A stretch of DNA of 40,468 nt from contig CAJJAV010000023.1 in the NCBI GenBank assembly GCA_905182125.1, positions 1 to 40,468 of the forward strand, given 5' to 3'. Positions 18,503-40,468 of this stretch are shown here, piece by piece. Position 1 is the first letter of the stretch. Every line of letters begins with the position of its first letter. The position numbers and the translations under genes are program-made. The DNA comes from an uncultured Candidatus Poseidoniales archaeon. GTDB taxonomy: Archaea > Thermoplasmatota > Poseidoniia > Poseidoniales > Poseidoniaceae. The notes below the pieces were generated by a model. The model saw only the letters and a list, made by a program, of their open reading frames with translations, ran no database searches and was not told the origin of the DNA.

Positions 18503-19054
18503 ATGCGTACGAGCCTCACACACCCGTTGTACGTCTCATGGATCCCTCTCGATGGCGATGATGGTAAACTGGGCATGACATTGTGCCCTGGCAAGTACCA
18601 ACCCGTCGCCTCCACCGGAGCATGGGACCGTCAACTCGATGTCGATTTGACCGCACTTGTCACCATGGGAACCCACCGTCTGGTTAGCCTCGTCACTGAG
18701 GAGGACATGCGGGTGTTACGAGTAGAGTCCTTGGGCGTTGATGCCTTGGCAAGCGGAATGGTTTGGGACCACCTCCCCATCGAAGACACCACCGTCCCTA
18801 CCCCAGAATGGATGGAAGCGGCAATCCCCGTGCTTGAGAGATTGGTTGTCGATATCCCTGGGGGAGAAGTGGCCGTCGTGCATTGTATGGGCGGACTCAG
18901 TCGTGCTGGCACGTTCATGGCCCTGTACCTGTGGATGCGTGGGATGTCAATGCAACAGGCGATCGACCATGTCCGTGAGCACCGTTCACGAACCTGCATT
19001 AACATCAATCAGCAGATGTTTTTGTTAAGATTCGCATCACTGGACGATGATTGA
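18503..19054 (+). CDS. Protein-tyrosine / dual-specificity-phosphatase-like enzyme
   Basis: A 183-residue cysteine-based phosphatase. The signature HCMGGLSRAGT near residues 131-141 fits HCx5R, with catalytic Cys and phosphate-binding Arg. The Asp or Glu of PIEDTTVP about 40 residues earlier is a candidate general acid. The N-terminal LGMTLCPGKYQP and the 'xDLDxDLxxL' helix recall a bacterial subfamily of tyrosine phosphatases related to CDKN3-like proteins. The substrate cannot be predicted: phosphoprotein, RNA 5' ends or a nucleotide signal are all possible. It is the last gene of the tightly packed three-gene cassette, and its ATG follows directly on the previous stop codon. Confidence 0.8.
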   Translation: MRTSLTHPLYVSWIPLDGDDGKLGMTLCPGKYQPVASTGAWDRQLDVDLTALVTMGTHRLVSLVTEEDMRVLRVESLGVDALASGMVWDHLPIEDTTVPTPEWMEAAIPVLERLVVDIPGGEVAVVHCMGGLSRAGTFMALYLWMRGMSMQQAIDHVREHRSRTCININQQMFLLRFASLDDD

Positions 19055-19258: not shown

Positions 19259-21385
19259 TCAAACAAAGGAGACATCTTTGCTGAAGATCAGTCGCCAAAG
19301 TTCTCGGCCATCCCAGTTGTCTTCACCTGCGAAGTACACATGACCCTCGTGAACATGAATATCACCGATAAATCCACCCGTTGGTTTCAAATCGATGACT
19401 TGCCAAGTTGTTCCGTTGATTGAATTGTGCGCCCACAATTCTTCACCAGTCGTACCATCGTTGGCGGAGAAATACACGGTGTATTGATGCACCGTGAGTT
19501 CAGTTGGTCCATTGGCCCCGGAAGTTGATTGGATATCGGTTACTTCCCTGAATGAATTGTTTTGGCTTTCATAGACCCACATTTCGAAGTGAGTTCCTGA
19601 AGTTGCCTGGAAGTAAACTTGGGTGCCAAGAACGACGAGATCAGAAGGTGAACTGCCGGCACCTCCTGCGCGAATGTCAGCTGCAAGCCAGACTGAATTA
19701 TTTGTTGTCTCATAAGCATACAACTCAGTTCCATGGGTTGTGCCTGCGTTTGCAGACATGTAGATCGTTGTTCCCATCGCAACAAGGTTTTGAGGGCTTG
19801 AAGAGAGAGACCCGGGATTGATATCGTTCACCATAAAGGTGGTATTTGTGCTTGTCTCATGTTTCCATAATTCGATTCCAGTCACTCCAACCGATGGTTG
19901 AGCTGAGAAATAGAGGTCTGAATTGACGGCAAGCAGCGAGGATGGTTGGATGTCTGCTTCTACTTTCCACACGCTGAAATTAACAGTTTCATAGGCCCAA
20001 AGGTCAAACAATCCAATGCCCGTAGAACCAGCACTATCTCGAGCGCTAAAGAAAACAGTCGTGTCAATGAGCGTAAATTCGCCAGGAAAACTCGAGCCTC
20101 CTGGGAAAATTTCCTTAATCTGCCATGCTGTTCCGTTTGATGGTTCGTAGACAAACGGTTTGACGTTAAAGCCAGCGTCCTGTCCTGCAAACATCAATTG
20201 TGGACCAATCGCATGCAACGAGAGGACACTCCCTGGATACACCAGTGAGATGCTTCCATTATCATAGGCCCAAATTCCGCTTGCAGTTCCATTGTTTGCT
20301 GTGAAATACATGGTAGAATTAATCGTGACAAAATTGGCAGGAGTGCTGTGCCCGGACGGGTTGATGTCTTCGACGAGCGCCACTTCAAAGGTGGTGCAAA
20401 TCAGCATGCTTGAGATCACCTCTCCAGATTCCAGTGCTCCATTGAGCGCGATGCCGTTGCCTGCTCCATTATCCATGCCCTGCTGCAGCAATTCTCCAGT
20501 TCCGTTGCATCCAAGAAACGCTGGTGCAATGGAAAGACGAGCGACCATCATCGTGAGGGTCGAACTTCCATCAGCGCCATCTGCTCCGTCAGCACCGTCT
20601 GCTCCGTCAGATCCATCCTGGCCTGTTTCGCCATTGCATACAACGACAAATGAATCAACTTCATCAACGGAAAGCGTATTGTCGCCGTTGTCGTCAACAC
20701 CCGTTTCCACGATAGTTCCACCATTTTGGCACCCTTCGACAATTGGTTCGGTGCGTGTTGCAATAAGGGAGGTGAGGCCGTTTTCACCGTTGGTACCGTC
20801 AGCACCATTGGCACCGTTCTGTCCATCAGTACCATCACTACCGTCGACTCCTTCGTTTCCGTTGGTTCCGTTCAAACCATCGTTGCCGTCAGTGCCGTTG
20901 AGTCCTGCTTGTCCAGTAAGGTCCATTTCTTGCCACGCATTGTTTTGGCACACTTGAAACATTGCTTGTGAAGCAATAAAGAAAATTTGATTGTTGAGAT
21001 CTTCATTGCACGTCTGAAGTTCAGCCGCAGTGACAACGAGGTGGAAGCTTGACCCGTCGGTCCCGTTCGAACCATTCATTCCATCGTTGCCAGAAGCGCC
21101 TTCAATGCCTTCAGCATTGGAGATTGAATAGATGGAAAAAGGCACCAAGACAAGCATGGCTGCCAAAAGGATGGCAGACATTGGCGCCGGCATGGACGAA
21201 GCGATTCCAGATGATCCAAGGGGGGTGCTCAGGGCCTCAATTTTTTCCCCCACAATTGGGATTGAGGTGCTGACTTCTGGCAGTTCCGTCTGGGTGGTTG
21301 CGATTTCGGCGGCTTGTTCCACTCTGCGGATTGCAATTTGCTCATCAGTCCAACCTTGTTCACGTAACTGTTCGTCTGCCCACAT
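19259..21385 (-). CDS. Membrane-anchored surface protein with collagen-like and ELW-type propeller repeats
   Basis: A 708-residue protein. The first 66 residues are cytoplasmic and begin with a helical motif, LREQGWTDEQIAIRRVEQ. A single membrane helix follows at about 69-88, so the bulk is outside. Collagen-like Gly-X-Y runs occur at about 99-111, 158-203 and 252-273. Between and after them are two copies of a 'GCxxGGxxxxxGxDxNGDxxLxxxEV...C' module (218-250 and 293-330) resembling DUF7151. From about 335 to the end there are repeats of 'PxxLxxxGTxxYFSAxxGTxGxELWxxxxxN', a propeller typical of secreted bacterial proteins. The role is probably adhesion or surface structure; no enzyme motif is seen. 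Gly-rich triplets are encoded by degenerate codons rather than one exact repeat. Confidence 0.82.
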   Translation of the reverse strand: MWADEQLREQGWTDEQIAIRRVEQAAEIATTQTELPEVSTSIPIVGEKIEALSTPLGSSGIASSMPAPMSAILLAAMLVLVPFSIYSISNAEGIEGASGNDGMNGSNGTDGSSFHLVVTAAELQTCNEDLNNQIFFIASQAMFQVCQNNAWQEMDLTGQAGLNGTDGNDGLNGTNGNEGVDGSDGTDGQNGANGADGTNGENGLTSLIATRTEPIVEGCQNGGTIVETGVDDNGDNTLSVDEVDSFVVVCNGETGQDGSDGADGADGADGADGSSTLTMMVARLSIAPAFLGCNGTGELLQQGMDNGAGNGIALNGALESGEVISSMLICTTFEVALVEDINPSGHSTPANFVTINSTMYFTANNGTASGIWAYDNGSISLVYPGSVLSLHAIGPQLMFAGQDAGFNVKPFVYEPSNGTAWQIKEIFPGGSSFPGEFTLIDTTVFFSARDSAGSTGIGLFDLWAYETVNFSVWKVEADIQPSSLLAVNSDLYFSAQPSVGVTGIELWKHETSTNTTFMVNDINPGSLSSSPQNLVAMGTTIYMSANAGTTHGTELYAYETTNNSVWLAADIRAGGAGSSPSDLVVLGTQVYFQATSGTHFEMWVYESQNNSFREVTDIQSTSGANGPTELTVHQYTVYFSANDGTTGEELWAHNSINGTTWQVIDLKPTGGFIGDIHVHEGHVYFAGEDNWDGRELWRLIFSKDVSFV

Positions 21386-22693: not shown

Positions 22694-25150
22694 ATGGACA
22701 CTCAGCGCGCACTCCTAATTACACTGGTTTTACTTCTTTCAAGCATAGCCGGTTGCTTTGGTAGTGAACAAGAACTGGAAGAAGAATTTGATCTCAACAC
22801 GGAAGAACGAACCCTGTTGGGAATGGGTGACTCTGTCATGGAATGGAACAGGGAAGACGCCTCGACCATCCCGGAGGTCGTGGGAGAGGAAGCAGGGTTC
22901 GCAGTGCTGAACAACGCCGAAAGTGGTGCCAAAGTCATCGAAGAGAGTTACGCTATTCCGTCTCAGTTCGTCGAACAAAATTGGGATTGGGTCATCATCA
23001 ACGGTGGGGCAAACGATGTGGATGGCTACTGCGATGAAGATGAGGGGGCCGTTCTTGATGCAATCATATCTGATGATGTTTCACAAGGTGACATGGTGGA
23101 TTTGGTCAATAAGGTCTCAACCTTCGCAAAGCACGTGATGCTTGCATCCTACTATGACATTCCGTCTGATTCAGAGAGCATGGTTGGCTGTGAAGCGGTC
23201 ATGGAAGAGATGGAGCTTCGCTATGAAGCCCTTGCCAACACCCTTCCTAACGTTCACTTTTTCGACATGGGAGACGCTATTACACCCAGCAACCGTGAAT
23301 ATTACGACGAAGACTTACTTCACCCGTCCCCCGATGGATGCGTTGCTATTGGCATGATGATGGCAGAACGCATTGTGGAAATTGAAAGTACAGCCCGTCA
23401 GTCCGATTCTCCCGTGACGCTTGATCCACTCGAAACGGAAGAACGAACCCTGTTGGGAATGGGTGACTCTGTCATGGAATGGAACAGGGAAGACGCCTCG
23501 ACCATCCCGGAGGTCGTGGGAGAGGAAGCAGGGTTCGCAGTGCTGAACAACGCCGAAAGTGGTGCCAAAGTCATCGAAGAGAGTTACGCTATTCCGTCTC
23601 AGTTCGTCGAACAAAATTGGGATTGGGTCATCATCAACGGTGGGGCAAACGATGTGGATGGCTACTGCGATGAAGATGAGGGGGCCGTTCTTGATGCAAT
23701 CATATCTGATGATGTTTCACAAGGTGACATGGTGGATTTGGTCAATAAGGTCTCAACCTTCGCAAAGCACGTGATGCTTGCATCCTACTATGACATTCCG
23801 TCTGATTCAGAGAGCATGGTTGGCTGTGAAGCGGTCATGGAAGAGATGGAGCTTCGCTATGAAGCCCTTGCCAACACCCTTCCTAACGTTCACTTTTTCG
23901 ACATGGGAGACGCTATTACACCCAGCAACCGTGAATATTACGACGAAGACTTACTTCACCCGTCCCCCGATGGATGCGTTGCTATTGGCATGATGATGGC
24001 AGAACGCATTCTGGAAATTGAAAGTACAGCCCGTCAGTCCGATTCTCCCGTGACGCTTGATCCACTCGAAACGGTCTTCAACGGCATGAATTACGATGGC
24101 AATTACTACTATGCGGAAGCAGAATGGGTTGTACACGATCCTTCTGAAATCGTGGAAATTGATGGTATGTTGATGATTGCCAACACGGGAAAGGGGCAAG
24201 AAGATGGCTATAATTGCGGTCTAGAAACATGGTACATATTCCCCAATGAGACCTCCTTTAGCCCAGGTCAATGCCTGTTGAGCGAAAAGCCAGCATGGGT
24301 GTCCCAATCTGTTTCAAGCAACGATGGTGCCTATTGGGCTCCAGGATTCTTGGATGCCAGAACCATGTATTACACCGTTCCAGTTGGCAATGCAATGGGC
24401 AATCCAGACTCAACTGAATCGTGTATTGGAATGATCAAAGCCACTGGAACTGCTCCAAATTTGGTTTGGACAGATCACGGATCGCCGATTCTTTGCCAGC
24501 CGCTTGGTGAAGCGAATACCGACCAACCTGAGCCACCGGCTTTGGACCCTGCAACAATTACTGATGATGACGGCCGAACCTATCTCATCTACGGTGGTGC
24601 CCACATATGGATGACTGAAGTCAATTCGACAACTGGTGAGCACCTCACCGGTGAAGATTGGGATAACGGTGCTTCGGGCACCTTTGTTCATCTGGCAAAT
24701 GGCCCCCTCGATCCAGAAGCCGAAGAGGATACATGGACAGAAGCCGCCTACATTCACAAACAAGGCGACTTCTACTATCTCTTTGTCAACTGGTTCAGAT
24801 GTTGTGGAGGTCCAGAATCAACCTATGAGATCTATGTTGGTCGTTCTACAACCATCGACGGGCCCTATGTTGATGCAAACGGAGTTTCGATGCTTGAGGG
24901 TGGAGGCACATTGGTCATGGATCGAACATCAGGGTACATCGGTCCCGGCCACCCTTCAATTTTCATACACGGGGACACTCAGGTCTTTACTCATCACTTC
25001 TACCCAGATGGTGGCGATGAAGAAGAACCTTGGACTGACGGAATTGCTTGGGCTTTCATTCAAGCGAACACACTGACTTGGAGTGAGGAAGGCTGGCCAG
25101 TGGTCGGTGGGACTTGGGATCCAATGTCCTATTGGAACACAGCAAACTGA
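22694..25150 (+). CDS. Lipoprotein with two identical SGNH hydrolase domains and a GH43-like domain
   Basis: An 818-residue secreted protein. Residues 1-21 form a lipoprotein signal with the lipobox SIAGC, so Cys21 should be lipid-anchored. Two SGNH/GDSL esterase domains follow (36-247 and 248-459), differing by one residue. In the first, the catalytic Ser is in GMGDS (Ser47), the oxyanion residues are in NGGAND (103-108), and the Asp/His pair is in DLLHP (Asp207, His210). Residues about 460-815 resemble glycoside hydrolase family 43, with VVHDP, YWAPGFLDA, LDPATITDDDGRTYLIYG, WTEAAYIHKQGDFYYLFVNW and IGPGHPS; the first and second Asp and the Glu are candidate catalytic residues. A plausible job is removal of ester groups from, and cleavage of, arabinose- or xylose-containing polysaccharide at the cell surface. 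Confidence 0.85.
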   Translation: MDTQRALLITLVLLLSSIAGCFGSEQELEEEFDLNTEERTLLGMGDSVMEWNREDASTIPEVVGEEAGFAVLNNAESGAKVIEESYAIPSQFVEQNWDWVIINGGANDVDGYCDEDEGAVLDAIISDDVSQGDMVDLVNKVSTFAKHVMLASYYDIPSDSESMVGCEAVMEEMELRYEALANTLPNVHFFDMGDAITPSNREYYDEDLLHPSPDGCVAIGMMMAERIVEIESTARQSDSPVTLDPLETEERTLLGMGDSVMEWNREDASTIPEVVGEEAGFAVLNNAESGAKVIEESYAIPSQFVEQNWDWVIINGGANDVDGYCDEDEGAVLDAIISDDVSQGDMVDLVNKVSTFAKHVMLASYYDIPSDSESMVGCEAVMEEMELRYEALANTLPNVHFFDMGDAITPSNREYYDEDLLHPSPDGCVAIGMMMAERILEIESTARQSDSPVTLDPLETVFNGMNYDGNYYYAEAEWVVHDPSEIVEIDGMLMIANTGKGQEDGYNCGLETWYIFPNETSFSPGQCLLSEKPAWVSQSVSSNDGAYWAPGFLDARTMYYTVPVGNAMGNPDSTESCIGMIKATGTAPNLVWTDHGSPILCQPLGEANTDQPEPPALDPATITDDDGRTYLIYGGAHIWMTEVNSTTGEHLTGEDWDNGASGTFVHLANGPLDPEAEEDTWTEAAYIHKQGDFYYLFVNWFRCCGGPESTYEIYVGRSTTIDGPYVDANGVSMLEGGGTLVMDRTSGYIGPGHPSIFIHGDTQVFTHHFYPDGGDEEEPWTDGIAWAFIQANTLTWSEEGWPVVGGTWDPMSYWNTAN
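22799..23434 (+). repeat. 636-bp tandem repeat, copy 1
   Basis: This is the first copy of an in-frame 636-bp (212-codon) direct repeat coding for the first SGNH domain. Comparison by eye with copy 2 shows one difference, G at 23375 against C at 24011 (Val to Leu). Four further bases (ACGG) are shared at the junction. Confidence 0.95.
23435..24070 (+). repeat. 636-bp tandem repeat, copy 2
   Basis: Second copy, directly adjacent to the first and coding for the second SGNH domain. Identity continues through 24074 and then stops at the GH43-like domain. Confidence 0.95.
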
Positions 25151-28528: not shown

Positions 28529-28683
28529 CGATGGGTCAAATCCGCTGGTGGCGTTCAGTACCCTGATCGGTCTTCTCGTCGATGTTGGTGTATGGCAATG
28601 GCCATGTGAGTTGTGTTGATGTTTCCACAGCCCTTGTAGCGGCGGATGACGAGACCTTGAGTTAAAGATCTCACGTGAGGACT
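28467..28683 (+). repeat. 217-bp direct repeat, copy 2
   Basis: The intact copy. It covers the last 20 codons of the membrane-protein gene, the spacer, and the last 13 bases of the convergent purP gene. Confidence 0.9.
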
Positions 28684-29828
28684 TCGAGCAGTCGATCTTG
28701 CTCAGCAGCCATACGCAATTCCATAGCAATTCTTCGCCCACTGCTCATTGGCTTGCGCCATGTAGCGTTTCCATAGGGGTGTCCTACGCTGACGTGGACG
28801 TTTGTTCCGCCACCCAAACGAGGTGCGACATCGTAAATGTAGTAATTCATATCCTTGTCAATGCAGGTTTGAAGACAGAACGGCCCAATGATTCCAGGAT
28901 CATAGTGCTCTTTGCTGGCGGTGATGAATTTCTCACCGAGTTCGAACGCCTTTTCGAGCAATGATTCCCTGATGGTCGCCGTGTTGTGTCCAACGACGGT
29001 CATCTCAGGGATTTGCTGATGAGCAGGCATGGTCATTTGTTGAGGTGCAGGAAGACGAACGTGTCCGTCAAGTGAGGACTCGAATCGCCAGTCGACGCCG
29101 AGAAGTTCCAACTTTTCACCTTCTTCTGCAAGTGGGCTGTAGAAGAAGTTGAGATTGAACACTGGTCCGATGACGTAGCGTTCAATCCTTGCGCCTGAAA
29201 GCGATTCTTGATCGATGACACCTTCTGCGAGAAGTGTTTTTGATTTCTCGAGGTATTCCTCGTATGATGCACAGGTGAAGAAACCGCGTTCCAGTTTCTT
29301 TTGTGCGTGGTGCAACTTGACAATCACCAAGCAATCAATGTCTTGAGGGTCAGCGATTGCTTCTGGGTAGGGCAGACCTGCTTTATCGAGGATCCAATAG
29401 TAATCCTGCTCTTCAGTTCGCTCTTCCATGCGCAGCATGTTCCTCGAACCAAACAATGGGACCTTGAAGGTCTCTTCAACGTCCTTGATGGACGAGTAGG
29501 AAGTGAAGGAGCGGTTTGGTATGTAGACGACGTTCCGCTTTCGCATCTCAGCCTGCATCTCGGGCTTCATGACGTCGTTGAATGAAGGCATAACGATGGC
29601 CTTGTCAACCATTCCTCGTGTTACGCGTCCTGAAGCGCTTCGGTGAGCTTTGAAGTAGTTCGCATAGGTTTTGTGACGGCCCTCTTTACAGTAAGCAACT
29701 GTTGGAAATCCTTCTTCGATCGCACCATCACAAATGTCCAATGCAGAGTGGGATGCTGTCATCCCAATGCGGAGTTTCATTCGATCGTACTCATCGACAA
29801 TCCCTGCGATTTCATCTTTGGTGATCAT
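28671..29828 (-). CDS. purP: FAICAR synthetase PurP (archaeal formate-dependent)
   Basis: Archaeal ATP-grasp enzyme that converts AICAR, formate and ATP to FAICAR, the step before IMP in purine synthesis. The 385-residue length is normal. Family marks are GSRNMLRMEE (the GNRxLLRWE site), CLVIVKLHHAQ, RYVIGPVFNLNFFYSPL followed by LELLGVDWRFESS, GIIGPFCLQTCI, APRLGGGTNVHV and the end SSGRRIAMELRMAAEQDRLLEVLT. It is the last gene of the minus-strand row, 64 bases downstream of a coiled-coil gene, so it may be co-transcribed with it. Its 3' end lies inside a 217-bp repeat, and a 20-base internal stretch (29072-29091) reappears at 27127-27146. Confidence 0.95.
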   Translation of the reverse strand: MITKDEIAGIVDEYDRMKLRIGMTASHSALDICDGAIEEGFPTVAYCKEGRHKTYANYFKAHRSASGRVTRGMVDKAIVMPSFNDVMKPEMQAEMRKRNVVYIPNRSFTSYSSIKDVEETFKVPLFGSRNMLRMEERTEEQDYYWILDKAGLPYPEAIADPQDIDCLVIVKLHHAQKKLERGFFTCASYEEYLEKSKTLLAEGVIDQESLSGARIERYVIGPVFNLNFFYSPLAEEGEKLELLGVDWRFESSLDGHVRLPAPQQMTMPAHQQIPEMTVVGHNTATIRESLLEKAFELGEKFITASKEHYDPGIIGPFCLQTCIDKDMNYYIYDVAPRLGGGTNVHVSVGHPYGNATWRKPMSSGRRIAMELRMAAEQDRLLEVLT

Positions 29829-29892: not shown

Positions 29893-30786
29893 TCAGTCAA
29901 ATCTCTGGAGTTGCATCAGTTCGTCTGTTGAAAGGGTTTCACCAGACATCAATTTGCTCATGAGGTCTTGTACCTCAACGCGGGCTGACGGTCGTTGACC
30001 TGCACCAGCGCTTGCACCACGCATGGCACGGAGCATATCTTGTATCGAGTGCAGGCATCGCAGTGATACGATGTACAGATGGTGAGCTTTGTCTGCTTCC
30101 TTCTTTGACTTGCGGAGTTCTCGGTGAGATGATTCAGCCTTGTCTCGCTGACGATCGACTTCTTTGTTCCATTGGAGCATCAAGTCGTGAGCTTCCTGAG
30201 CTGCTTGTGCTGCTGCAGTCACTTCTTCGTGAGCCGACTCTTGGGCTTCCATCGAAATGCGGAGCAACTCTCGTGCTTCCTTGAGTTCAGTGTTGCCTTC
30301 TTCACTGGTTTTCATCTTCTTGACCTTGGCGCTGATTTCCTTCATGCGCTTCATGACCTTTGTCTCGTTGTTTCCAGTGTGCCGACCGCGTTCAAATTCG
30401 CTTTCAAGGCGACTAAGTTCGCGTCGGAGGGTGTGAATGGTTTCTGGTGGCTTTTCACGGCGACCACGTCGTCCAGGTTCTGGTGGAGCTGGTGCTGCTT
30501 GAGGTCCTTTTGCTGCCTCAAGCATTTCCTTTGCTGCACGAACCGAGGTGTTGGCTTCTTGGCGGGTGGATTTCTTGTCGCGAACAATTTCATTCATTTG
30601 TTCACGGATTTCACGTTGCTCACGTACTTGGACGATGAGTTCTCGAACTTCAGCATTCAACTCGTTGCGCGTACCGGTGAATGTCTTCGATTTGTCGTTC
30701 CATTCGTCGCGTGTTGTTCGGTACGTGGTCGCTTTTCCATCGACCAATTTTCGTCGCTCTTCGAGTTGAGTTTTGAGTTCTGACAT
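29893..30786 (-). CDS. COG1340-type archaeal coiled-coil protein
   Basis: A 297-residue, highly charged protein that is almost entirely heptad-like helix: residues about 1-92, then a Pro/Gly/Arg-rich break (PPEPGRRGRREKPP), then about 113-250. It resembles the archaeal coiled-coil family COG1340, whose function is not established. It ends in SGETLSTDELMQLQRFD, preceded by VEVQDLMSKL, a short acidic amphipathic motif; a similar motif, GGTFSLSDLDVLLNSGG, lies near the end of the Cid1-like protein. Two other coiled-coil proteins in this window (33990-34883 and 39759 onwards) look related. No signal or membrane segment is present, so it is cytoplasmic. Confidence 0.8.
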   Translation of the reverse strand: MSELKTQLEERRKLVDGKATTYRTTRDEWNDKSKTFTGTRNELNAEVRELIVQVREQREIREQMNEIVRDKKSTRQEANTSVRAAKEMLEAAKGPQAAPAPPEPGRRGRREKPPETIHTLRRELSRLESEFERGRHTGNNETKVMKRMKEISAKVKKMKTSEEGNTELKEARELLRISMEAQESAHEEVTAAAQAAQEAHDLMLQWNKEVDRQRDKAESSHRELRKSKKEADKAHHLYIVSLRCLHSIQDMLRAMRGASAGAGQRPSARVEVQDLMSKLMSGETLSTDELMQLQRFD

Positions 30787-30941: not shown

Positions 30942-31259
30942 TCAGACAACCAATGCATTGAGGGCAGCAATCGCTTGGTCAAATGAGGCACGTACGGAAC
31001 CCAAGTTTGCTCCCGTTTCGCACTTGAGAACAAGCACTCGTTCTGCTTTCAAACGCTGTGCCATGATGCAGGCGTGTTCACCTTGCACCGTGATGCGTGC
31101 TGAGCCCGATGCATCGAGGGGGCCAACTGCTTGAGCGAGTTGATCCACGGTATCGTCATGGCGTGGTGCAGTGTTTGTGACAAAGCCATCTTTGTCGAGC
31201 AGCGCGACTTGTAGAACTGCCTGGTTTGCCAGGAGTCCGTCCAACACACGTTGTTCCAC
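30942..31259 (-). CDS. Roadblock/LC7-like protein
   Basis: A 105-residue protein with the length and pattern of the Roadblock/LC7 fold: an N-terminal helix LDGLLANQAVLQ, strand VALLDKDGFVTNT, a central helix DDTVDQLAQAVGPL, strand SARITVQGEH, strand RVLVLKCETGANLGSVRASF and a C-terminal helix DQAIAALNALV. In this family such proteins dimerise and often partner small GTPases or cytoskeletal regulators. No GTPase gene is next to it here; its neighbours are an acetyltransferase gene and a coiled-coil gene. The start is a GTG at 31259. It lies 55 bases after the GNAT gene on the same strand. Confidence 0.75.
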   Translation of the reverse strand: MEQRVLDGLLANQAVLQVALLDKDGFVTNTAPRHDDTVDQLAQAVGPLDASGSARITVQGEHACIMAQRLKAERVLVLKCETGANLGSVRASFDQAIAALNALVV

Positions 31260-31314: not shown

Positions 31315-31806
31315 TTAGGGAACAGGTGCAGGGACGGGTCCTTTCATCATGTAGCCTAATCCTGATTGGTAATAGTTTTCTAGATGAACTTCCACATCTA
31401 AACCCCTCGTTCTATAGAATTCCTGCGCTCTTTGGTTTGAAGCCTTAACCTCGAGTTGAATAAACGATTTTTTCTCGCCATGGCATGCTGCTACCAAATG
31501 GTTCCATGCTTGCGAACCCCAACCTTGGCCTTGCAAATCAGCGTGTATGGCAAAGGCTGCGATTCGCACACCCTCGTCCAAAAATGGTAACGCCCAGAGC
31601 AACCCACGCAGTGAACTTGGCTCCGGGTAAAGATCCATGTCAACGAGAAGCATGTTTCCATCCCATAAGGGGATTGGAAGTGAAGCAATCGAAGCATCAG
31701 CGTAGACCTCACCAGTTTCCTTGAGAAAGAGGTCTTTGACCATCGCTCGCCAATCAGCAGGCATTTTGACTGGTTCAACACCCAAAATCCATTGGATGTT
31801 CCTCAT
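31315..31806 (-). CDS. GNAT-family N-acetyltransferase
   Basis: A 163-residue acetyltransferase. The acetyl-CoA pyrophosphate loop is AFAIHADLQGQGWGSQAWNHL, with Q-x-x-G/Q-x-G-x-G/S spacing as in motif A, and the C-terminal motif B strand and helix are LEVKASNQRAQEFYRTRGLDV, as in RimI-like proteins. The substrate, protein N-terminus or small molecule, is unknown. ATG 31806 is chosen; a GTG at 31812 directly abutting the previous stop would add two residues. It immediately follows the Cid1-like gene, so the two are almost certainly co-transcribed, which makes acetylation of an operon partner a possibility. Confidence 0.85.
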   Translation of the reverse strand: MRNIQWILGVEPVKMPADWRAMVKDLFLKETGEVYADASIASLPIPLWDGNMLLVDMDLYPEPSSLRGLLWALPFLDEGVRIAAFAIHADLQGQGWGSQAWNHLVAACHGEKKSFIQLEVKASNQRAQEFYRTRGLDVEVHLENYYQSGLGYMMKGPVPAPVP

Positions 31807-31812
31807 GTGCAC

Positions 31813-33993
31813 TCATTCCTTTCGACCTTTCGTCGATTGTGAGCGTACGCCACGGTGAGCAGTGAGGTTGGTCGTATTGACCTTCTTTTTGCGCTCTTGC
31901 CGTCGCGATGATTTCGCAGTTTGTTGCTTCTTGGTCACCGTGCTGAGACCACCACTGTTCAACAGAACATCGAGGTCTGAAAGCGAGAATGTACCACCGG
32001 CCGCAGCTCGGTTCTGAACTTCTTCGGCTTTTGCACCGTTGCTCCTTGGCTTCCAATCGGCGGAGCCTGACTTGGTTCGCTTTTGTCCGCCACCCTTTTT
32101 CCCGTCTTGATTGGTCCTTCGTGGAGGGGGATTGGAACTGATCCTCACCCAAGCATCGAGTCGGCCCTTTTCACGGCGCAAACGTCGCATTTCAGTACGA
32201 CGCTTGTCGAGAACTTTCATCAAAGCACTTGCTTTCTTATCGAATTGCATGGCATCGCTGAAATTGATGTCCATATCTTTGAGCATTGGCTCAGCTTCAA
32301 GCAGTTCAGCTTTATGTTCGTCCTGCTTCTTTTCGTTTTCCTTGAGCGAACGAACTGCCGCTTTTTGCTCCTTGAGCAGATCGACAAAGGCTTTGTGTGC
32401 TTCTTGGGCTTTGAGTGCCTCTTGATGCATCGATTGGAGTTCAAAGAACCAAGAAAACTGGTCTTCTTCTCGGCGCAAGGATGGCACCTGGAACAAATCA
32501 ATTTCTCCAGTGAGTTGCTGATACACATCTTGCAGTAACTCATTGATTCTGTAGAGTGGTAAGCCTATACGCTTGTTTATTTCATCTCGCTGCTTTTGCA
32601 GTTCATCCATTTTCTGAGAGCGTGGGCGAAGGGTTCGCACAATGGTGCGCAGTTCATTTCGCAAATCGGTCGTGTCTTCGATTTTACCTCGAAGTGCGCG
32701 TGACATCTTGACGTTGCGTTGGCGCTCTTCCGTCAGAGCAGTCATCCGCTCATCCAATGCTTCTGTCGCCGTTGTGTTCTCCTGGACAAGTGCTGCGACT
32801 TCGTCTTTGGATTTTGTACGAAGGTCGGCAAAGAGGTCAAACTCCTCGACCGGCAAGAAGCGTTCTGGTCGCTTTGCTTCGACGATCTGTTCCCAACGTT
32901 GTCCTTCACCCAGTGCAATGCATGTTCTCAAAAATTCTTCTTGAATGTCCAAAGCGCCCGAAGGTCGCAGAACTCGGCTAAGATCGTGATCGAGGTCCAA
33001 TGGATCTTCAATTGGAAGCGAATGTTGACCTAAGCGGGTCTTTTTATCCATAAGAATCGCTTTTTCCGCACGGGGTGTGGCATGCTTCCACTTTTTCGAC
33101 TTACGGGTCAGGTAGGCACCGTTGCGAACAGAGACCACATGATCTTTGAATGGAGATTTCGTGGCGTGTTCGAATATGAACTCTACAAACAATTCACCGA
33201 TGCTCTGATCGTTTTTCGGATCCATGGTGATGGATGCCGGATCGGCCATTGTGAGGTCATATGTTTCCCCTTCGACTTCGACCATTGTTCGCTCTTCTCC
33301 AGCTTGGAGGACAGGGGCAACTGGTGGGTTGGTTTGTTGAAGGGATTGGACTGCGAGAAGTGTCCATGCATAGGAAGAGAAGGTCCCTGCGGCAGCATCG
33401 CACACATCCCGTCGCAAAGCCCAATGTTTCACAGACAAAATGAGCCAGCGAATTCGTTCATCGGATGAAGCATATCGCTTCAAAAGTTCAGTGTTATGAA
33501 GAGCGAGCGTGTTGTTGATGGAAATGTCAACTGGGATCTTGGTTCGCTCATCTGTGAACTTGATGATCGGTACCTTGGCCCTCGGCAACATGACGATATC
33601 TTCCATGTCGTGTTGTTTGAGCAGTCGGTTCACTTGACGCAGAACCTTTGCTGGTATTTCTCCTTTGAATTGAAGGCAGAGATCCAGGTCACCCGCTTGA
33701 AGCGTGAGTCCGGACTGAGATGAACCAAATTGCTGCAATGTGGCTCTTTTGAATCTGCGTTCAAGCGTTCGCTTGAGGTGTTGGAACAAACCCGCTCTTG
33801 CTTTGAGTTGTTTTGCAGTTGGACCCTCGGTTTTGAGCATCGATTCAATTCCTTGATTGAGGTTGATGATGACCTCTTCACTGATGGAAGAGGCTTCAGG
33901 AAGGGGGAGTTGGCCACAAAGGTGCTTGTGAACATGAGGCCAACGGGCAATTTGCTCGGGCGAAAAACCAGTGGTTTCACAATCGTCACTCAC
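31813..33993 (-). CDS. Cid1/TRF4-like terminal nucleotidyltransferase fused to a coiled coil
   Basis: A 726-residue protein whose N-terminal half has the eukaryotic-type poly(A)/poly(U) polymerase architecture. The catalytic domain shows FGSSQSG (89-95), DLDL with Asp102 and Asp104, and a third carboxylate, Asp156, in VPIIKF...IPVDIS. The central helices read NTLALHNTELLKRYASSDER, VKHWALRRD (188-196) and GTFSSYAWTLL (203-213). The PAP-associated domain has SIGELFVEF (264-272) and IEDPLDLDHDLSR (328-340), where His336 aligns with the residue that favours UTP in S. pombe Cid1. Residues about 395-610 are coiled coil, then a basic tail and a short motif at 666-682. Likely role: adding U or A to RNA 3' ends. 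The start is GTG, overlapping the previous stop by four bases. Confidence 0.88.
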   Translation of the reverse strand: MSDDCETTGFSPEQIARWPHVHKHLCGQLPLPEASSISEEVIINLNQGIESMLKTEGPTAKQLKARAGLFQHLKRTLERRFKRATLQQFGSSQSGLTLQAGDLDLCLQFKGEIPAKVLRQVNRLLKQHDMEDIVMLPRAKVPIIKFTDERTKIPVDISINNTLALHNTELLKRYASSDERIRWLILSVKHWALRRDVCDAAAGTFSSYAWTLLAVQSLQQTNPPVAPVLQAGEERTMVEVEGETYDLTMADPASITMDPKNDQSIGELFVEFIFEHATKSPFKDHVVSVRNGAYLTRKSKKWKHATPRAEKAILMDKKTRLGQHSLPIEDPLDLDHDLSRVLRPSGALDIQEEFLRTCIALGEGQRWEQIVEAKRPERFLPVEEFDLFADLRTKSKDEVAALVQENTTATEALDERMTALTEERQRNVKMSRALRGKIEDTTDLRNELRTIVRTLRPRSQKMDELQKQRDEINKRIGLPLYRINELLQDVYQQLTGEIDLFQVPSLRREEDQFSWFFELQSMHQEALKAQEAHKAFVDLLKEQKAAVRSLKENEKKQDEHKAELLEAEPMLKDMDINFSDAMQFDKKASALMKVLDKRRTEMRRLRREKGRLDAWVRISSNPPPRRTNQDGKKGGGQKRTKSGSADWKPRSNGAKAEEVQNRAAAGGTFSLSDLDVLLNSGGLSTVTKKQQTAKSSRRQERKKKVNTTNLTAHRGVRSQSTKGRKE

Positions 33994-34883
33994 TCCTCTT
34001 CACCTCCGCTCTCTGCCTTTGGGTTTGGTATTGCTTTTGATTTTGGCTTTGACTCTGGTTTGGCTTTGGAAGCTTGGCGACCTTTGGTCTTCTTTGGTTG
34101 ATCTTTTTTGGTCGGTTTACGATTGCGGACTGTGCTTGAAGCACCGCCTTCTTTGACAGTTGTAGCATTGACGAGCAAGCGTTCAAAGCCATCATCAATG
34201 ATTTTTTGCCAATGTTCCATACCACGTTGGCTGCTGTCAAGGGCCTCTGCCAGTCGCTTCGTGCGTCCATCGGCGCGGCGACGGTGGGCTTCATGCTCGA
34301 CGTAACTGGTGTGATGGTATTCGTTCTCATTTGCCAGTTCGACGATGGCATCATGGGCTTTTTGTGCCGTTTCGAGCAAGACCTTAGCATCCTTGAACGA
34401 GGCATCCATTTCTGCCAAGCCTTCTTGACTTGAACTTCGTTCTGTAACCCATTCATCATGTTGGCGAATGAGGTTTTTCATCTCTTTAATGTACTTCTGT
34501 TCGGTTTTATGGTTGCCCGCATTTGTCTCCAGTTCGGTTTCCAAACTGAGTAATTTCGCATCGAGCTTCTCTTTTGCCCATTTTGGATTCGGATCCTTGA
34601 TGCCGCCAGAGGCCTGGAGTTGGTCTCGCAGTTCGCCTGCCCGCTTGAACAGGCTTCGGGCTTTGGATTGGTTCTCAGATCGCTCTCGCTTGAGGTTGGC
34701 TACTTTGGCGTTGATGCCATCGCGCTTCTCCTTTGCAGCACGCGCCAGAGGTTCGGCTGCAACGAGTTCCTCCTGACGAGCATCGAGTTGTTCCGGGATG
34801 ACTTCAGCAAGCCGTTCGCGACGATGTAAAATGGACTTCGCCAGTAAGGCGGGGGTCACACCAAGCAACTCCTCGGGGGTCAT
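33990..34883 (-). CDS. Coiled-coil protein with a basic tail, partner of the Cid1-like gene
   Basis: A 297-residue cytoplasmic protein. Residues about 15-245 are long charged helices with heptad character (LAEVIPEQLDARQEELVAAE; DGINAKVANLKRERSENQSK; WVTERSSSQEGLAEMDASFK), resembling COG1340-type archaeal coiled-coil proteins. The last 50 residues are Lys/Pro/Ser-rich (KPTKKDQPKKTKGRQASKAK) and may bind RNA or ribosomes. It is the first gene of the minus-strand row and overlaps the Cid1-like gene by four bases (GTGA), so the two products are probably made in step and may form a complex through their coiled coils. ATG 34883 is preferred over a GTG at 34919. Confidence 0.75.
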   Translation of the reverse strand: MTPEELLGVTPALLAKSILHRRERLAEVIPEQLDARQEELVAAEPLARAAKEKRDGINAKVANLKRERSENQSKARSLFKRAGELRDQLQASGGIKDPNPKWAKEKLDAKLLSLETELETNAGNHKTEQKYIKEMKNLIRQHDEWVTERSSSQEGLAEMDASFKDAKVLLETAQKAHDAIVELANENEYHHTSYVEHEAHRRRADGRTKRLAEALDSSQRGMEHWQKIIDDGFERLLVNATTVKEGGASSTVRNRKPTKKDQPKKTKGRQASKAKPESKPKSKAIPNPKAESGGEEE

Positions 34884-34975
34884 ACAGTGTCCCCCCACCT
34901 TGCAACCTTGAATAAACACTGCGTAGCGTCTTCATTCGGCGTGAAGGTGAAGAACCCCCTTGCTGAGCCGGTCCT

Positions 34976-37468
34976 ATGGGGGCGCCAAAACAGACCAGTT
35001 GGCTCACTGCTCTCGGTCTCTTATCGGTGCTTATTCTGAGCCTATTCGTGCCACAGGTCGCTGCTTCTGGTGGTGAGGCTGCGATTGAAACCTCGAGTAT
35101 TTCTTTAGGCCTCTCCGAACAAACTGAATTGGCCACGCTGACCTATGCCTTTGACGTGGTCGAACAAAACGGCCAAAGCGCCGATGTGACCGCTCAATCA
35201 GTTTTGAAATCCATCGATGGGCTCATCTTAGAATCACTGAATGAAACAAAGACGGTTGCTCTCAACGGTGTTGAAACATTCACGGTCACGTTCACTTCGC
35301 TTCCATTTGGTTATTCAATCATTGAAACCACCATCACCGGTGATGTAGGGTCAACTTCCAGCAGTTACGTCCTTTCATTCAATCGCACAGTACAGCGACT
35401 TGTGCCACTTGACATCAGCATCGCACCTGTCGGTGATGTCACATTTACCAGCCTCGATACCGCAACGGGCCCAACAGGGAACCTCTCGATCAGTGATGGC
35501 GATTTTTTGGGAATGCAAATACCCGTTGTCAACAACGGGGACTATGCTTGGAATGGTTCCATGCAAATTGATGTGCAATCCGGTGATTCTGTTGAATCGA
35601 TAACCATTCACACCGTTGTGGTCCCGGGGATGTCGAGCACCCTTGTTTACGCCAATACCTCAATAAAAATGGCGGAAGGCCAAACATCAATCACGTTGAC
35701 ACTCAACGACACCGGCGATGGGGATTCCTCGGATGAGGCAAGGTCGATCATGCTTGATATTGCGCCACCGCCTTTGCCGCTGATGCAACTCTATCCTCAA
35801 CTCGTGACCACCGAGTACGTCGCTGGTGATGTTCTCGAATGGAACCTTTCAGTCACGAACAACGGTACGCAATCTTTCCTCGGATTGATTGTTTGTTCCT
35901 TCGGTGAGGTTTCGGTTTTGAATCAGAGTCTGGAATTGACCTTGATGGCATCAACTTCGATGACATTCACGACACAAGCCCGTCCTGCCACCCTCGATTG
36001 TGACGCCACAGGGACACGGATTTCAGTTCAATCCAATGCGCCCATTGTTCTCTTATTTGACGTCATTTCTGCCGTCTTCGAAGCTGCTGGCTCTACCAAG
36101 CCGGGTGTGCTTGATGGCCCTTGGCACGTTGGTGATAGTGCTCGTTTCTCGATGCTTGTACGAAATCATGGCGATGTTCAAGGGACGGTGGCATTGGAAT
36201 GCACAACCTCCCAATCAGTGTACACCAGCCAACCCCTTTCCCTCGATGTGGATGCAGCAGGTGAAGTCTCTGTGATTGTCCCACTGCTCAACGCAGGTGA
36301 TGAGATCATCGAATGGCGTCTGAGTTCCCAAGATGGCAGCATCGATCAGGGGTTGAACGGATCATTCGTCGTTCCAGTTGCTGCCAAACAGGTGCTTCAA
36401 CCCAGCGTCGATCAGGTTACTTGGGATGCAGAGGTTGGGGCGAGCATGAATTGGTCAATCACGCTGGGTGAAGGTGTGGACCGCTCGGTTCGAGTTCGTC
36501 TCGGCTACTTCGACTCTGGCGAAACCTATCTCTTGGATTACCTTGTGACGCTGGCACCTGGGGTGACCACTGGGTCCCTCGATTTGGGCTTCATCGACGC
36601 CGAACGAGCCACACTGCGCGTGGATGCCAGCAACTGGAGCGAGGCTTTCGGGCCATCCAGCGACAGCAAATCCATCCCCAGCAAGCGGCCTGTCCTTCGG
36701 CTCACTTTAGATCCAGTTGCCTCTCCATCACGTCCAGTTGCAGGTCAAAGTGCGACCATCCAAGTGTCAATTTCGAACGGTGGAACGGTCGCTGGTTCGG
36801 CGGGAGAACTTCTCTTGCTCGGTGAAGATGGAACGCTGTACGACACCAAAGCAACGCCGGTGCTTGACGCAGGTGAGTCGACCTTGGTCTCTATTACTCT
36901 GCTTTGGCCCGAAGGTGCTCGGGTCAATTTGGAGGCTGTTTGGTCTGTTGCAGGCGAGCAAATCAAAGATTCATCTTCCTTTACATCGGCTGAAGAAGAA
37001 ATTGAAGATGCAGCCTTTAGCGTCCCATGGGTCGGCATTCTTGGCGGCATTGCTCTGGCAGGAGCCGTTCTGGCAGCGATCAGAATCAAACAAGGTCAAG
37101 GTCTTGGCCCGTCTGGCAAATCCAAGGGTGCACTCAAATCAAAATCGAAGCCTACACCCAGCAAGATCGTATCAAGTGAAGAAAAAATTCAGATCGGTTG
37201 CCCTGAATGTGCTCGTCAACTGAGGGTGCCAGCATCCTACAATGGCTCAGTTCGTTGCCCTGATTGCTCCAACAGCTTTGAAGTTGAATCCGATCACAAT
37301 GGAGAAGAGATTGAGCCAGATGAAGTTGAAGAAGAGCAAGAACCTGATGAAGAAGCCAAAGTCGAATTGTCATGCCCTGAATGCCGTCAATCCCTCAGGG
37401 TTCCAAACAGCTATGCAGGTTCGGTCAGATGCCCTGCTTGCGAACATGTGTTCAAGGCAAAGGATTGA
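34976..37468 (+). CDS. Secreted and anchored surface protein with two cytoplasmic zinc ribbons
   Basis: An 830-residue protein. Residues 1-30 form a signal peptide (ALGLLSVLILSLFVPQVAASG). Residues about 35-675 are beta-sandwich repeats with CARDB/DUF11-like features, such as 'G(D/E)xxxxxxxVxNxG' (FLGMQIPVVNNGDYAWNGS; LEWNLSVTNNGTQSFLG; ATIQVSISNGGTVAGSA). A membrane helix at about 684-702 is followed by a basic linker, then two zinc ribbons (about 738-771 and 796-830) of the form CPxCxxxLRVPxxYxGSVRCPxCxxxF, separated by an acidic run. The ribbons should be inside the cell, so this may link an extracellular binding region to an internal partner. It is divergent from the coiled-coil/Cid1 row. 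Confidence 0.8.
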   Translation: MGAPKQTSWLTALGLLSVLILSLFVPQVAASGGEAAIETSSISLGLSEQTELATLTYAFDVVEQNGQSADVTAQSVLKSIDGLILESLNETKTVALNGVETFTVTFTSLPFGYSIIETTITGDVGSTSSSYVLSFNRTVQRLVPLDISIAPVGDVTFTSLDTATGPTGNLSISDGDFLGMQIPVVNNGDYAWNGSMQIDVQSGDSVESITIHTVVVPGMSSTLVYANTSIKMAEGQTSITLTLNDTGDGDSSDEARSIMLDIAPPPLPLMQLYPQLVTTEYVAGDVLEWNLSVTNNGTQSFLGLIVCSFGEVSVLNQSLELTLMASTSMTFTTQARPATLDCDATGTRISVQSNAPIVLLFDVISAVFEAAGSTKPGVLDGPWHVGDSARFSMLVRNHGDVQGTVALECTTSQSVYTSQPLSLDVDAAGEVSVIVPLLNAGDEIIEWRLSSQDGSIDQGLNGSFVVPVAAKQVLQPSVDQVTWDAEVGASMNWSITLGEGVDRSVRVRLGYFDSGETYLLDYLVTLAPGVTTGSLDLGFIDAERATLRVDASNWSEAFGPSSDSKSIPSKRPVLRLTLDPVASPSRPVAGQSATIQVSISNGGTVAGSAGELLLLGEDGTLYDTKATPVLDAGESTLVSITLLWPEGARVNLEAVWSVAGEQIKDSSSFTSAEEEIEDAAFSVPWVGILGGIALAGAVLAAIRIKQGQGLGPSGKSKGALKSKSKPTPSKIVSSEEKIQIGCPECARQLRVPASYNGSVRCPDCSNSFEVESDHNGEEIEPDEVEEEQEPDEEAKVELSCPECRQSLRVPNSYAGSVRCPACEHVFKAKD

Positions 37469-37493: not shown

Positions 37494-38165
37494 ATGGGTG
37501 GGCATTTCCAGGAATTTGAGGATGAATACCTCGAGACCATGTATGAGTTCTATGAACGGGACCCATTGGCTTTGGTTCGAACTGGAGATTTGTCCGAGGC
37601 ACTCTCAGTATCACCCGCTTCCGCTACCGAAATGATTCAGAGGCTTGCTTCAAAGGGGCTTCTTGAATACACACCGTACAAAGGCGCTCGTCTAAGTAAA
37701 ACCGGCATGCGCCACGGTAAGAAAATGAAAAGACGCCACCGCCTCGCAGAAGTGTTGTTGGACATCCTACCGTTCGATGGCAATGCCCATGCCACTGCAT
37801 GTCGGCTCGAGCATGCCATTGATGATGACCTTGAAGTGGCTCTATCGCTGTTGCTTGGCCGTCCTGATCTGGATCCAAGCGGACGAGAGATACCAAAACC
37901 AACAGCTGAGATCCTTGCTCGTATTGAAGCCAATCACAGAGAAATCCGCCCCCTCTCGTGCATGGCTGTCGGCGACACTGGCGCATTTGAAGCCATGATG
38001 ATGTCACCCTCAAAGCGTGACCATTTGCGTGCACTCGGGGTCGTGATCGGTGCAACTATTTCACGCGATGCAGACGGATTTTTGTTGGACGACGGGTCAC
38101 GAATTGAATTGAGCAACGAACTTTCCTCCCAACTTCTGTTTCGGCCCTTTGGGCTTGAGAACTAA
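37494..38165 (+). CDS. DtxR/IdeR-type metal-dependent transcription regulator
   Basis: A 223-residue regulator. Residues about 8-72 form the winged helix-turn-helix (LVRTGDLSEALSVSPASATEMIQRL). The dimerisation and metal domain follows: H82 and E86 in RHRLAEVLL, and H99 with C103, E106 and H107 in AHATACRLEH, with exactly the spacing of the two metal sites of corynebacterial DtxR (H79, E83, H98, C102, E105, H106). GRPDLDPSGREIP is the family hinge. The C-terminal 70 residues look like the SH3/FeoA-like domain. The Cys in the primary site points to Fe(II) rather than Mn(II). Targets are not evident; it starts 25 bases after the surface-protein gene. Confidence 0.92.
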   Translation: MGGHFQEFEDEYLETMYEFYERDPLALVRTGDLSEALSVSPASATEMIQRLASKGLLEYTPYKGARLSKTGMRHGKKMKRRHRLAEVLLDILPFDGNAHATACRLEHAIDDDLEVALSLLLGRPDLDPSGREIPKPTAEILARIEANHREIRPLSCMAVGDTGAFEAMMMSPSKRDHLRALGVVIGATISRDADGFLLDDGSRIELSNELSSQLLFRPFGLEN

Positions 38166-39758: not shown

Positions 39759-40468
39759 ATGCGCGGAATCAAAGAAGATGCCACACCCGGCCCTGATTCA
39801 GAGTTGAAGGATGAATTGCAAGCCATGGAAGCACGCGTTCGCAAGATGCGAGACGCCCGCAATGGCTACAGCGATCAAGCCCGCACTGCTGCCGATAAGC
39901 GCAACGCCATCCAAGGCCAGTACAAGGAGCACAGAGAGAAAGTCGATCTGGTCCTTGCTGAAGTCAAAGCGATACGTGCAGAAGTGAAAATGCATAAGGA
40001 AAAGCGCAACGCCATCCAAGCCCAACTCCGCGACATCATTGGCCAAGCTAAAGGCCAGCGAAAGGAAAAGGGCGACAAAAAATCTGCAACAGCTGAGTAC
40101 GCACAACTGAAGCGAGATGTGGCAGGCTTAGAGAAAACTTTTGAGACTTCATCCGTCGGTCAAAAGAAGGAAAAAGAAATGATCAAGACCATCAAGGAAA
40201 TGAGCCGACGCATTGAGGAACTGGCGCCAGATGTTGTCCAGTTCGAAATGATCGCTGTTGATCTGAGTGATATGGACACCGCCATCAAAACCCTCAAGTC
40301 AGAAGCCGACGCCTCGCATCAGGCCATGCTTGAAGCAGTTGGCCGTGCAGACGCAATGTCCAAGGAAGTTGACGAAGCATTTGCTCACCGAGACTTCCTC
40401 AAAGCAGAGGGCGACCGTTTCCACGAGGAATTCCTTGAACTGCGTAAAAAATCAGATCAGATTCACGA
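39759..40468 (+). CDS. COG1340-type coiled-coil protein, C-terminus cut by the window edge
   Basis: The frame is open to the right edge, showing 236 residues. After a short N-terminus (MRGIKEDATPGPDSELKDEL) the sequence is continuous charged helix with heptad character. The segment KRNAIQGQYKEHREKVD is echoed by KRNAIQAQLRDIIGQAK about 40 residues later, an internal repeat typical of the COG1340 family. It appears related to the coiled-coil proteins at 29893-30786 and 33990-34883 but is in a different transcription unit and on the other strand. The visible part lacks membrane or catalytic motifs. Confidence 0.78.
   Translation, partial: MRGIKEDATPGPDSELKDELQAMEARVRKMRDARNGYSDQARTAADKRNAIQGQYKEHREKVDLVLAEVKAIRAEVKMHKEKRNAIQAQLRDIIGQAKGQRKEKGDKKSATAEYAQLKRDVAGLEKTFETSSVGQKKEKEMIKTIKEMSRRIEELAPDVVQFEMIAVDLSDMDTAIKTLKSEADASHQAMLEAVGRADAMSKEVDEAFAHRDFLKAEGDRFHEEFLELRKKSDQIH

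Follow-up and report, generated by a model that had tools for sequence, protein, structure and literature searches.

In archaea, RNA tailing is known from exosomes acting by phosphorolysis and from the addition of CCA; enzymes dedicated to uridylation are, to our knowledge, regarded as eukaryotic. Human TUT7 and TUT4 are large proteins of several domains, among them zinc knuckles and a second nucleotidyltransferase unit that looks inactive, and CutA is a C-adding enzyme. We know of no coiled-coil extension in Schizosaccharomyces pombe Cid1, of no fusion of Arabidopsis URT1 to the archaeal coiled coil considered here and of no PAP-associated domain in CCA-adding enzymes. No earlier report of a terminal uridylyltransferase (TUTase) in the Poseidoniales was found in the open-access PMC literature, preprints excluded, and a report may exist elsewhere. 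The TUTase is not among the Poseidoniales-specific families described in the relevant part of PMC9258230, and the portions of PMC11646218 and PMC4442281 that treat the nucleotidyltransferase superfamily do not mention it. The catalytic module described below is a plain member of its family; it is the host and the fusion that are new.

The catalytic module and its active site

The window analysed is a stretch of 40,468 nucleotides, and its reverse strand carries at 31813..33993 a frame of 726 amino acids, identified from the open reading frame, Pfam and homologues, that opens with GTG where the homologues L010 and L018 have ATG. The preliminary description had read an ordered set of TUTase motifs in this frame and each is present at its place: FGSSQSG (residues 89-95), DLDL (102-105), D156, NTLALHN (161-167), VKHWALRR (188-195), SSYAW (206-210) and IEDPLDLDHDL (328-338). 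In the frame a complete TUTase catalytic module (approximately residues 4-372) is followed by a coiled-coil domain (residues 373-726; 31816..32877, reverse strand), which belongs to no Pfam family and was delimited by its stand-alone counterpart in the sister family. Neither this second domain nor the order-wide conservation of the gene cassette had been noted in the preliminary description. The module, delimited with AlphaFold2 and Foldseek (32878..33984, reverse strand), comprises a palm domain and a central/PAP-associated domain. On the same strand the Pfam scan places PF22600 at residues 45-175 (33469..33861; 1e-30, 107 bits, cut-off 27); the PAP-associated block of the preliminary description is recovered above its cut-off as PF03828 (PAP_assoc) at residues 264-336 (32986..33204; 1.7e-7, 31.8 bits, cut-off 22.6). 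The pol-beta palm features are the G-S motif F89-G90-S91 and D102, D104 and D156; by arithmetic the D-L-D codons of Asp102 and Asp104 lie at 33682..33690 and that of Asp156 at 33526..33528, and alignment with Cid1 puts the nucleotide recognition motif D-P-L-D-L-D-H (residues 330-336) at 32986..33006, all on the reverse strand.

Judged at the level of sequence, the motif and family matches lie far beyond chance. The best matches among PDB sequences were TUT7 (9.8e-52), TUT4 (3.2e-50) and URT1 (2.5e-39), followed by CutA (1.3e-36) and Cid1 (3.2e-34), with GLD2 also among the best; a search of NCBIfam assigned the protein to no family. A profile built from 13 archaeal modules retrieved URT1, TUT7, TUT4, CutA, Cid1 and GLD2 from the PDB sequences and covered URT1 at model positions 16-323 of 331, its best domain scoring 240.9 bits. 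The AlphaFold2 model of residues 4-372, made from 33 aligned sequences, has a mean pLDDT of 92.9 and a pTM of 0.91, and its top Foldseek match in the PDB is URT1 (7xs4; E 3.1e-24, TM 0.80 relative to the query and 0.90 relative to the target), after which come the TUT7 catalytic module, Cid1 and CutA and then mouse GLD-2 and human TUT1. The structure prediction suggested at the outset thus returned the fold of URT1, TUT7, Cid1 and CutA. URT1 is alike over the full length of the module (35% identity to that of the window) and is both the best single-domain profile match and the best fold match; the two share an IEDPF(E/D)xxHDLxRVV motif, ahead of which the archaeal module has a longer stretch. 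The catalytic modules of TUT7 and TUT4 are the best pairwise sequence matches and have NTLALHNT, SSYA and LQQxNPPVxPVLQ in common with it, but the archaeal protein, unlike these, has one nucleotidyltransferase unit and a coiled coil. Cid1 is alike in the Asp triad, the D330/H336 recognition pair and the fold, with 28-29% identity to the module, and GLD2 and CutA, of the same fold and family, are the next-best matches. The module therefore groups with URT1, TUT4/7, Cid1, CutA and GLD2 and not with the CCA-adding enzymes, of which both the class I archaeal and the class II bacterial types are kin only through the distant nucleotidyltransferase superfamily. The initial assignment to a Cid1/TRF4 family is upheld on its Cid1/TUTase side, whilst the TRF4 or mitochondrial PAP side falls away, TUT4/7, URT1, Cid1, CutA and GLD2 being nearest.

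The active site was surveyed at 160 loci, where 154 frames matched the module; the 92 sequences read from these are distinct, near-full-length modules with no case of one lying within another. The Asp triad (102/104/156) is kept in 89 of the 92 (for one of them a base is unread at the first two positions), and amongst the 89 triad-bearing modules Asp330 is invariant (89/89) and Tyr208 is present in 88, with one unread. Position 336 is His in 78 of them, Arg in seven, Ile in two, Leu in one and Val in one. Asp330 and His336 of the window protein align with D330 and H336 of Cid1, the equal numbering being a coincidence. The passages of PMC4357723 and PMC4605311 that deal with Cid1 give H336, with D330, as the main uracil discriminator and report that with the H336A or H336N substitution Cid1 becomes a poly(A) polymerase; the part of PMC7470959 on GLD-2 describes an enzyme with no such His and no UTP selectivity, unlike the window protein with its His336. 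Since 11 of the 89 triad-bearing modules are without His336, nucleotide choice may vary within the group. Across seven close pairs dN/dS of the module was 0.029-0.092, with dS above 1.5 in two of them, and the module is under purifying selection in most genera.

Gene cassette, fusion, decay and loss

The fused gene overlaps the stop of its upstream gene by 4 bases. That gene (33990..34919) encodes a coiled-coil protein that Pfam scores as DUF7121-like (23.8 bits, below the 29-bit cut-off), and directly downstream lies a GNAT acetyltransferase (31315..31812), with, beyond it, a small protein with a weak MglB/roadblock-like match (30942..31259; E 0.015), a Pfam DUF7121 coiled-coil protein (29893..30786; 3e-16) and a purP-like ligase of formate-dependent purine synthesis (28671..29828), all on the reverse strand. 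On the forward strand, divergent from these, are a CARDB/zinc-ribbon protein (34976..37468) and, next in the cassette, a DtxR/MntR-type regulator (37494..38165). A third DUF7121 or DUF7121-like coiled-coil protein occurs near the gene at 39759-40466, and elsewhere the window encodes a dual-specificity phosphatase-like protein (18503-19054), a protein combining collagen-type repeats with DUF7151 (19259-21385) and a glycosyl hydrolase family 43 domain fused to a GDSL lipase (22694-25150). At 39 loci of Ca. Poseidoniaceae, our family f1 (some of them one genome represented twice), the upstream coiled coil was found in 36, GNAT in 37, the downstream DUF7121 gene in 37 and CARDB in 36, several of the misses being locus or contig ends; by BLAST, the short g10 loci L045 and L046 have no upstream coiled-coil gene. 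Ten loci were read from f2, the sister family within the order, and in all ten the module is missing, while the coiled coil adjoins both the upstream coiled-coil gene and the divergent gene for the CARDB/zinc-ribbon protein. The cassette is conserved across the order and, as it is common to f1 and f2 loci, the module is flanked by two ancient neighbours.

The stand-alone protein of the sister family is orthologous to residues ~373-726, lies in the same cassette and is without the catalytic module. Among 145 genomes of the order the coiled-coil profile A3 matched 70 of 72 from f1 and 72 of 73 from f2, and the f2 open frames listed are at most 385 amino acids long. The coiled coil, which the sister family has by itself at the corresponding locus, is native to these archaea, and the fusion of the module onto it falls on the Poseidoniaceae stem. 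Its basic C-terminal tail, delimited by composition (residues 625-726; 31816..32121, reverse strand), has 25 K/R against 8 D/E in 102 residues and a pI of 11.5, and near its end an AHRGxR motif is conserved; the model of the coiled-coil domain has a pTM of 0.44. The upstream and downstream coiled-coil neighbours match each other with a profile-profile probability of 93%. Membership of residues 373-726 in DUF7121 was tested and found no support, there being no PF23435 match and hhalign probabilities against the neighbours' alignments of 21% and 2%.

In a sample of 292 genomes from the phylum PF22600 matched 150, none of them from f2; all matches of at least 98.7 bits lie in 32 f1 genomes, and the best elsewhere reached 37.2 bits. 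PF03828 matched 28 of 243 genomes and none of 14 control genomes; 27 of the 28 are from f1, and the match outside it, to a frame of 15 aa broken by three stops, is spurious; archaeal phyla beyond the phylum sample were covered by the two-pattern scan described below and four archaeal controls only. Within f1, 145 genomes divide into 93 with the module (truncated in one of them where the contig ends), six in which it is dead, 31 with the coiled coil only (two from g2, five from g5, two from g6 and 22 from g10) and 15 with no match. The module was not found in the 11 coiled-coil-only genomes that were read of these 31, and it is missing from g2, g5, g6 and most of g10; G036 gives no evidence of loss because its contig ends inside the module. 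In genus g7 Asp102, Asp104 and Asp156 are replaced by Gly, Glu and Arg in six of six genomes. The module is evidently dispensable, being dead in g7 and missing in g2, g5, g6 and most of g10. At the g7 loci L031, L032, L033, L218, L219 and L220 the fused module is retained as a pseudoenzyme, and at the g2 loci L041 and L043 low-complexity K-G-K/Q-S-K-G repeats of variable length occupy the place where the lost module stood.

With f2 as the root, the coiled-coil tree shows two groups within f1, one of g7, g2, g6 and the long-branched g5 and one of all the rest, the support of the latter (83/90) not being strong. It joins g7 with g2 and g6 (98/90, or 100/98 when g5 is left out) and the short g10 proteins with the fused g10 ones (97/95, or 91/96 without g5). 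In the module tree g3, g4, g7, g9, g10 and g11 form clades and g1 does not wholly, L074 standing apart. The simplest account is one gain on the f1 stem, followed by decay in g7 and loss in g2/g6, in g5 and in part of g10; in g5 the module may instead never have been present.

Competing explanations

The host is Ca. Poseidoniaceae (MGIIa), and that the gene might come from contamination or a chimeric contig is a negligible prospect. The genome is a 31-contig assembly, 82% complete with 3.4% contamination, which leaves nominal room for a stray sequence, but the same window encodes Rpo5, Rpo2, Rpo1N, Rpo1C, L30e and tRNA-Lys and the gene recurs with its conserved neighbours in many assemblies. 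A two-pattern scan of species-representative genomes matched 168 stretches, of which 108 were confirmed as relatives, and the 80 of the 108 that are listed carry titles of Poseidoniaceae, Poseidonia sp., Poseidoniales or Euryarchaeota archaeon/uncultured euryarchaeote, L157 excepted. One relative, L086, lies within the chromosome record CM001443.1, and L124, L143, L149 and L155 come from records without a MAG label, presumably single-cell genomes to judge by their names. The gene is present in most Poseidoniaceae genomes examined, which argues against contamination; a eukaryotic or chimeric contig, foreseen at the outset as the possible undoing of the archaeal claim, is rejected by the polymerase genes and the recurring cassette. 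L157 is filed under a Rhodobiaceae bacterium and is probably mis-binned, since a Poseidoniaceae cassette is on its contig. Scarcely any weight attaches, either, to the protein being a CCA-adding enzyme or another prokaryotic nucleotidyltransferase, into which a profile search of residues 80-365 might have placed it. A weak match to PF01909 (23.9 bits) leans that way, but it is outscored by PF22600 and PF03828, neither the class I CCA domain PF09249 (tRNA_NucTransf2) nor the class II CCA/bacterial PAP head domain PF01743 matched the window protein in the Pfam scan, and the Foldseek matches are TUTases; this identity too is rejected. As to origin, it is very improbable that the module is an ancient archaeal gene ancestral to the eukaryotic TUTases. 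URT1 scores 125.7-179.8 bits (median 150) against active-type archaeal modules and 26.3 and 9.7 bits against two g7 sequences, and by comparison 212 against CutA, 172 against the TUT7 module, 152-158 against Cid1, 134-138 against GLD2, 123-131 against C. elegans gld-2, 83 against Trf4, 80-82 against mitochondrial PAP, 68-71 against TUT1 and 47-50 against Tailor. By these bit scores, which are not a tree, URT1 resembles the archaeal modules about as much as it does Cid1 and GLD2, and more than it does the other eukaryotic branches; the scores agree with a place inside the eukaryotic TUT/GLD2 group and so favour descent from within eukaryotes. An archaeal ancestor gains what room it has from the comparison being one of scores and not of broad eukaryotic sampling in a tree, and against it are the confinement of strong matches in the phylum sample to one family (32 f1 genomes) and a coiled coil older than the fusion. 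An old eukaryote-to-archaeon transfer is, from these scores, most likely. The suggestion that the gene bears on the origin of eukaryotic tailing accordingly needs to be turned about: a module of one family, set atop a coiled-coil gene that the sister family keeps alone, bears more on transfer into archaea. A viral or plasmid source was also considered. When viral contigs were scanned twice by pattern, none of the 26 and 28 matches could be confirmed, and phages and plasmids had no match by tblastn; within the limited sensitivity of these searches, no such source was found.

The reading we prefer, with a probability of roughly 0.7, is that a eukaryote-type TUTase was transferred to the Poseidoniaceae stem, fused to the native coiled coil and acts there as an RNA 3'-uridylyltransferase. 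It is rather unlikely that the protein is a real RNA-tailing enzyme without U-specificity, making A, C or mixed tails or differing in its choice among lineages. The 11 modules without His336, the behaviour of GLD-2 and of the Cid1 H336A/N mutants, and the presence of CutA among the nearest solved structures would fit such an enzyme; the window protein, however, has both His336 and Asp330, the His is present in 78 of 89 modules, and the strongest full-length match is a uridylyltransferase, URT1. A good deal less probable again is a substrate other than RNA 3' ends at large, be it one RNA species (in tRNA or rRNA repair or quality control), a small molecule or a protein. The pol-beta-type fold does serve many substrates and no other recognised RNA enzyme is present at the locus, the neighbours being coiled coils, GNAT, purP and a metal regulator, but the closest relatives all work on RNA 3' ends and the CCA role is filled by another enzyme. 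The premise that the host uses a class I CCA-adding enzyme proved mistaken: none of 31 Poseidoniales genomes matched PF09249, against 4 of 14 controls, and the bacterial-type, class II PF01743 is present in 25 of the 31, at loci other than that of the TUTase, although the 82%-complete genome of the window itself gave no match to it. The CCA is not encoded in the window tRNA-Lys, and the TUTase is unlikely to be the CCA enzyme because f2, without it, still has the class II enzyme.

A possible link to RNA decay and the biology of the Poseidoniaceae

If the uridylyltransferase reading is right, a eukaryote-type module would have reached the Poseidoniaceae stem by horizontal transfer and become an in-frame 5' extension of the native coiled-coil gene in a cassette common to the order. 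UTP would be bound in the cleft between palm and central domains, with two-metal catalysis by Asp102, Asp104 and Asp156, and its uracil would be read by Asp330 and His336, the fused enzyme adding untemplated uridines to RNA 3' ends. The coiled coil and basic tail would most probably dock the enzyme on an RNA or RNP common to the neighbouring coiled-coil proteins, and the U-tails would either alter how the exosome or a nuclease of the RNase R type degrades RNA or serve as a mark at RNA 3' ends. Exosome-type RNase PH genes were found in 31 of 31 relatives, and tailing could therefore feed phosphorolysis or guard against it.

An RNB nuclease, nearer to RNase R than to DIS3L2, is present in 88 of 145 f1 genomes (13 of 19 in a smaller f1 sample) and in none of 12 from f2. 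By genus it occurs in six of seven with an intact module and none of four without, a pattern that may reflect one or two events in the tree. A strict link between TUTase and RNase R-type nuclease was entertained and is kept merely as a lead, as it is broken at the genome level by g9, g10 and g11: the nuclease is present in 15 of 22 coiled-coil-only g10 genomes and missing from two of two g9 and 17 of 23 module-bearing g11 genomes, MAG incompleteness adding noise to these counts. In the survey of L167 and the RNB loci the RNB gene of the window's own genome was split over two frames, and G110 has a different, stronger RNB match that may be foreign.

It is possible, and we advance it tentatively at somewhat less than even odds, that RNA uridylation is a trait of the whole family, in which a eukaryotic TUTase captured on a native coiled-coil RNP scaffold, as an archaeal enzyme dedicated to tailing RNA without a template, works with archaeal 3' nucleases in much the way that uridylation in eukaryotes works with nucleases there. 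If the enzyme is active, numerous archaea of the surface ocean would have a eukaryote-like layer of RNA control, and its history would offer a dated, polarised example of a catalytic domain captured from eukaryotes, attached to a native gene whose genomic place is fixed, maintained by selection and, in some lineages, decayed or deleted. The purpose of uridylation, an old question, could then be tested by comparing prokaryotes that have the enzyme with others that do not, and these archaea may, if it works as predicted, mark RNA in a manner thought special to eukaryotes.
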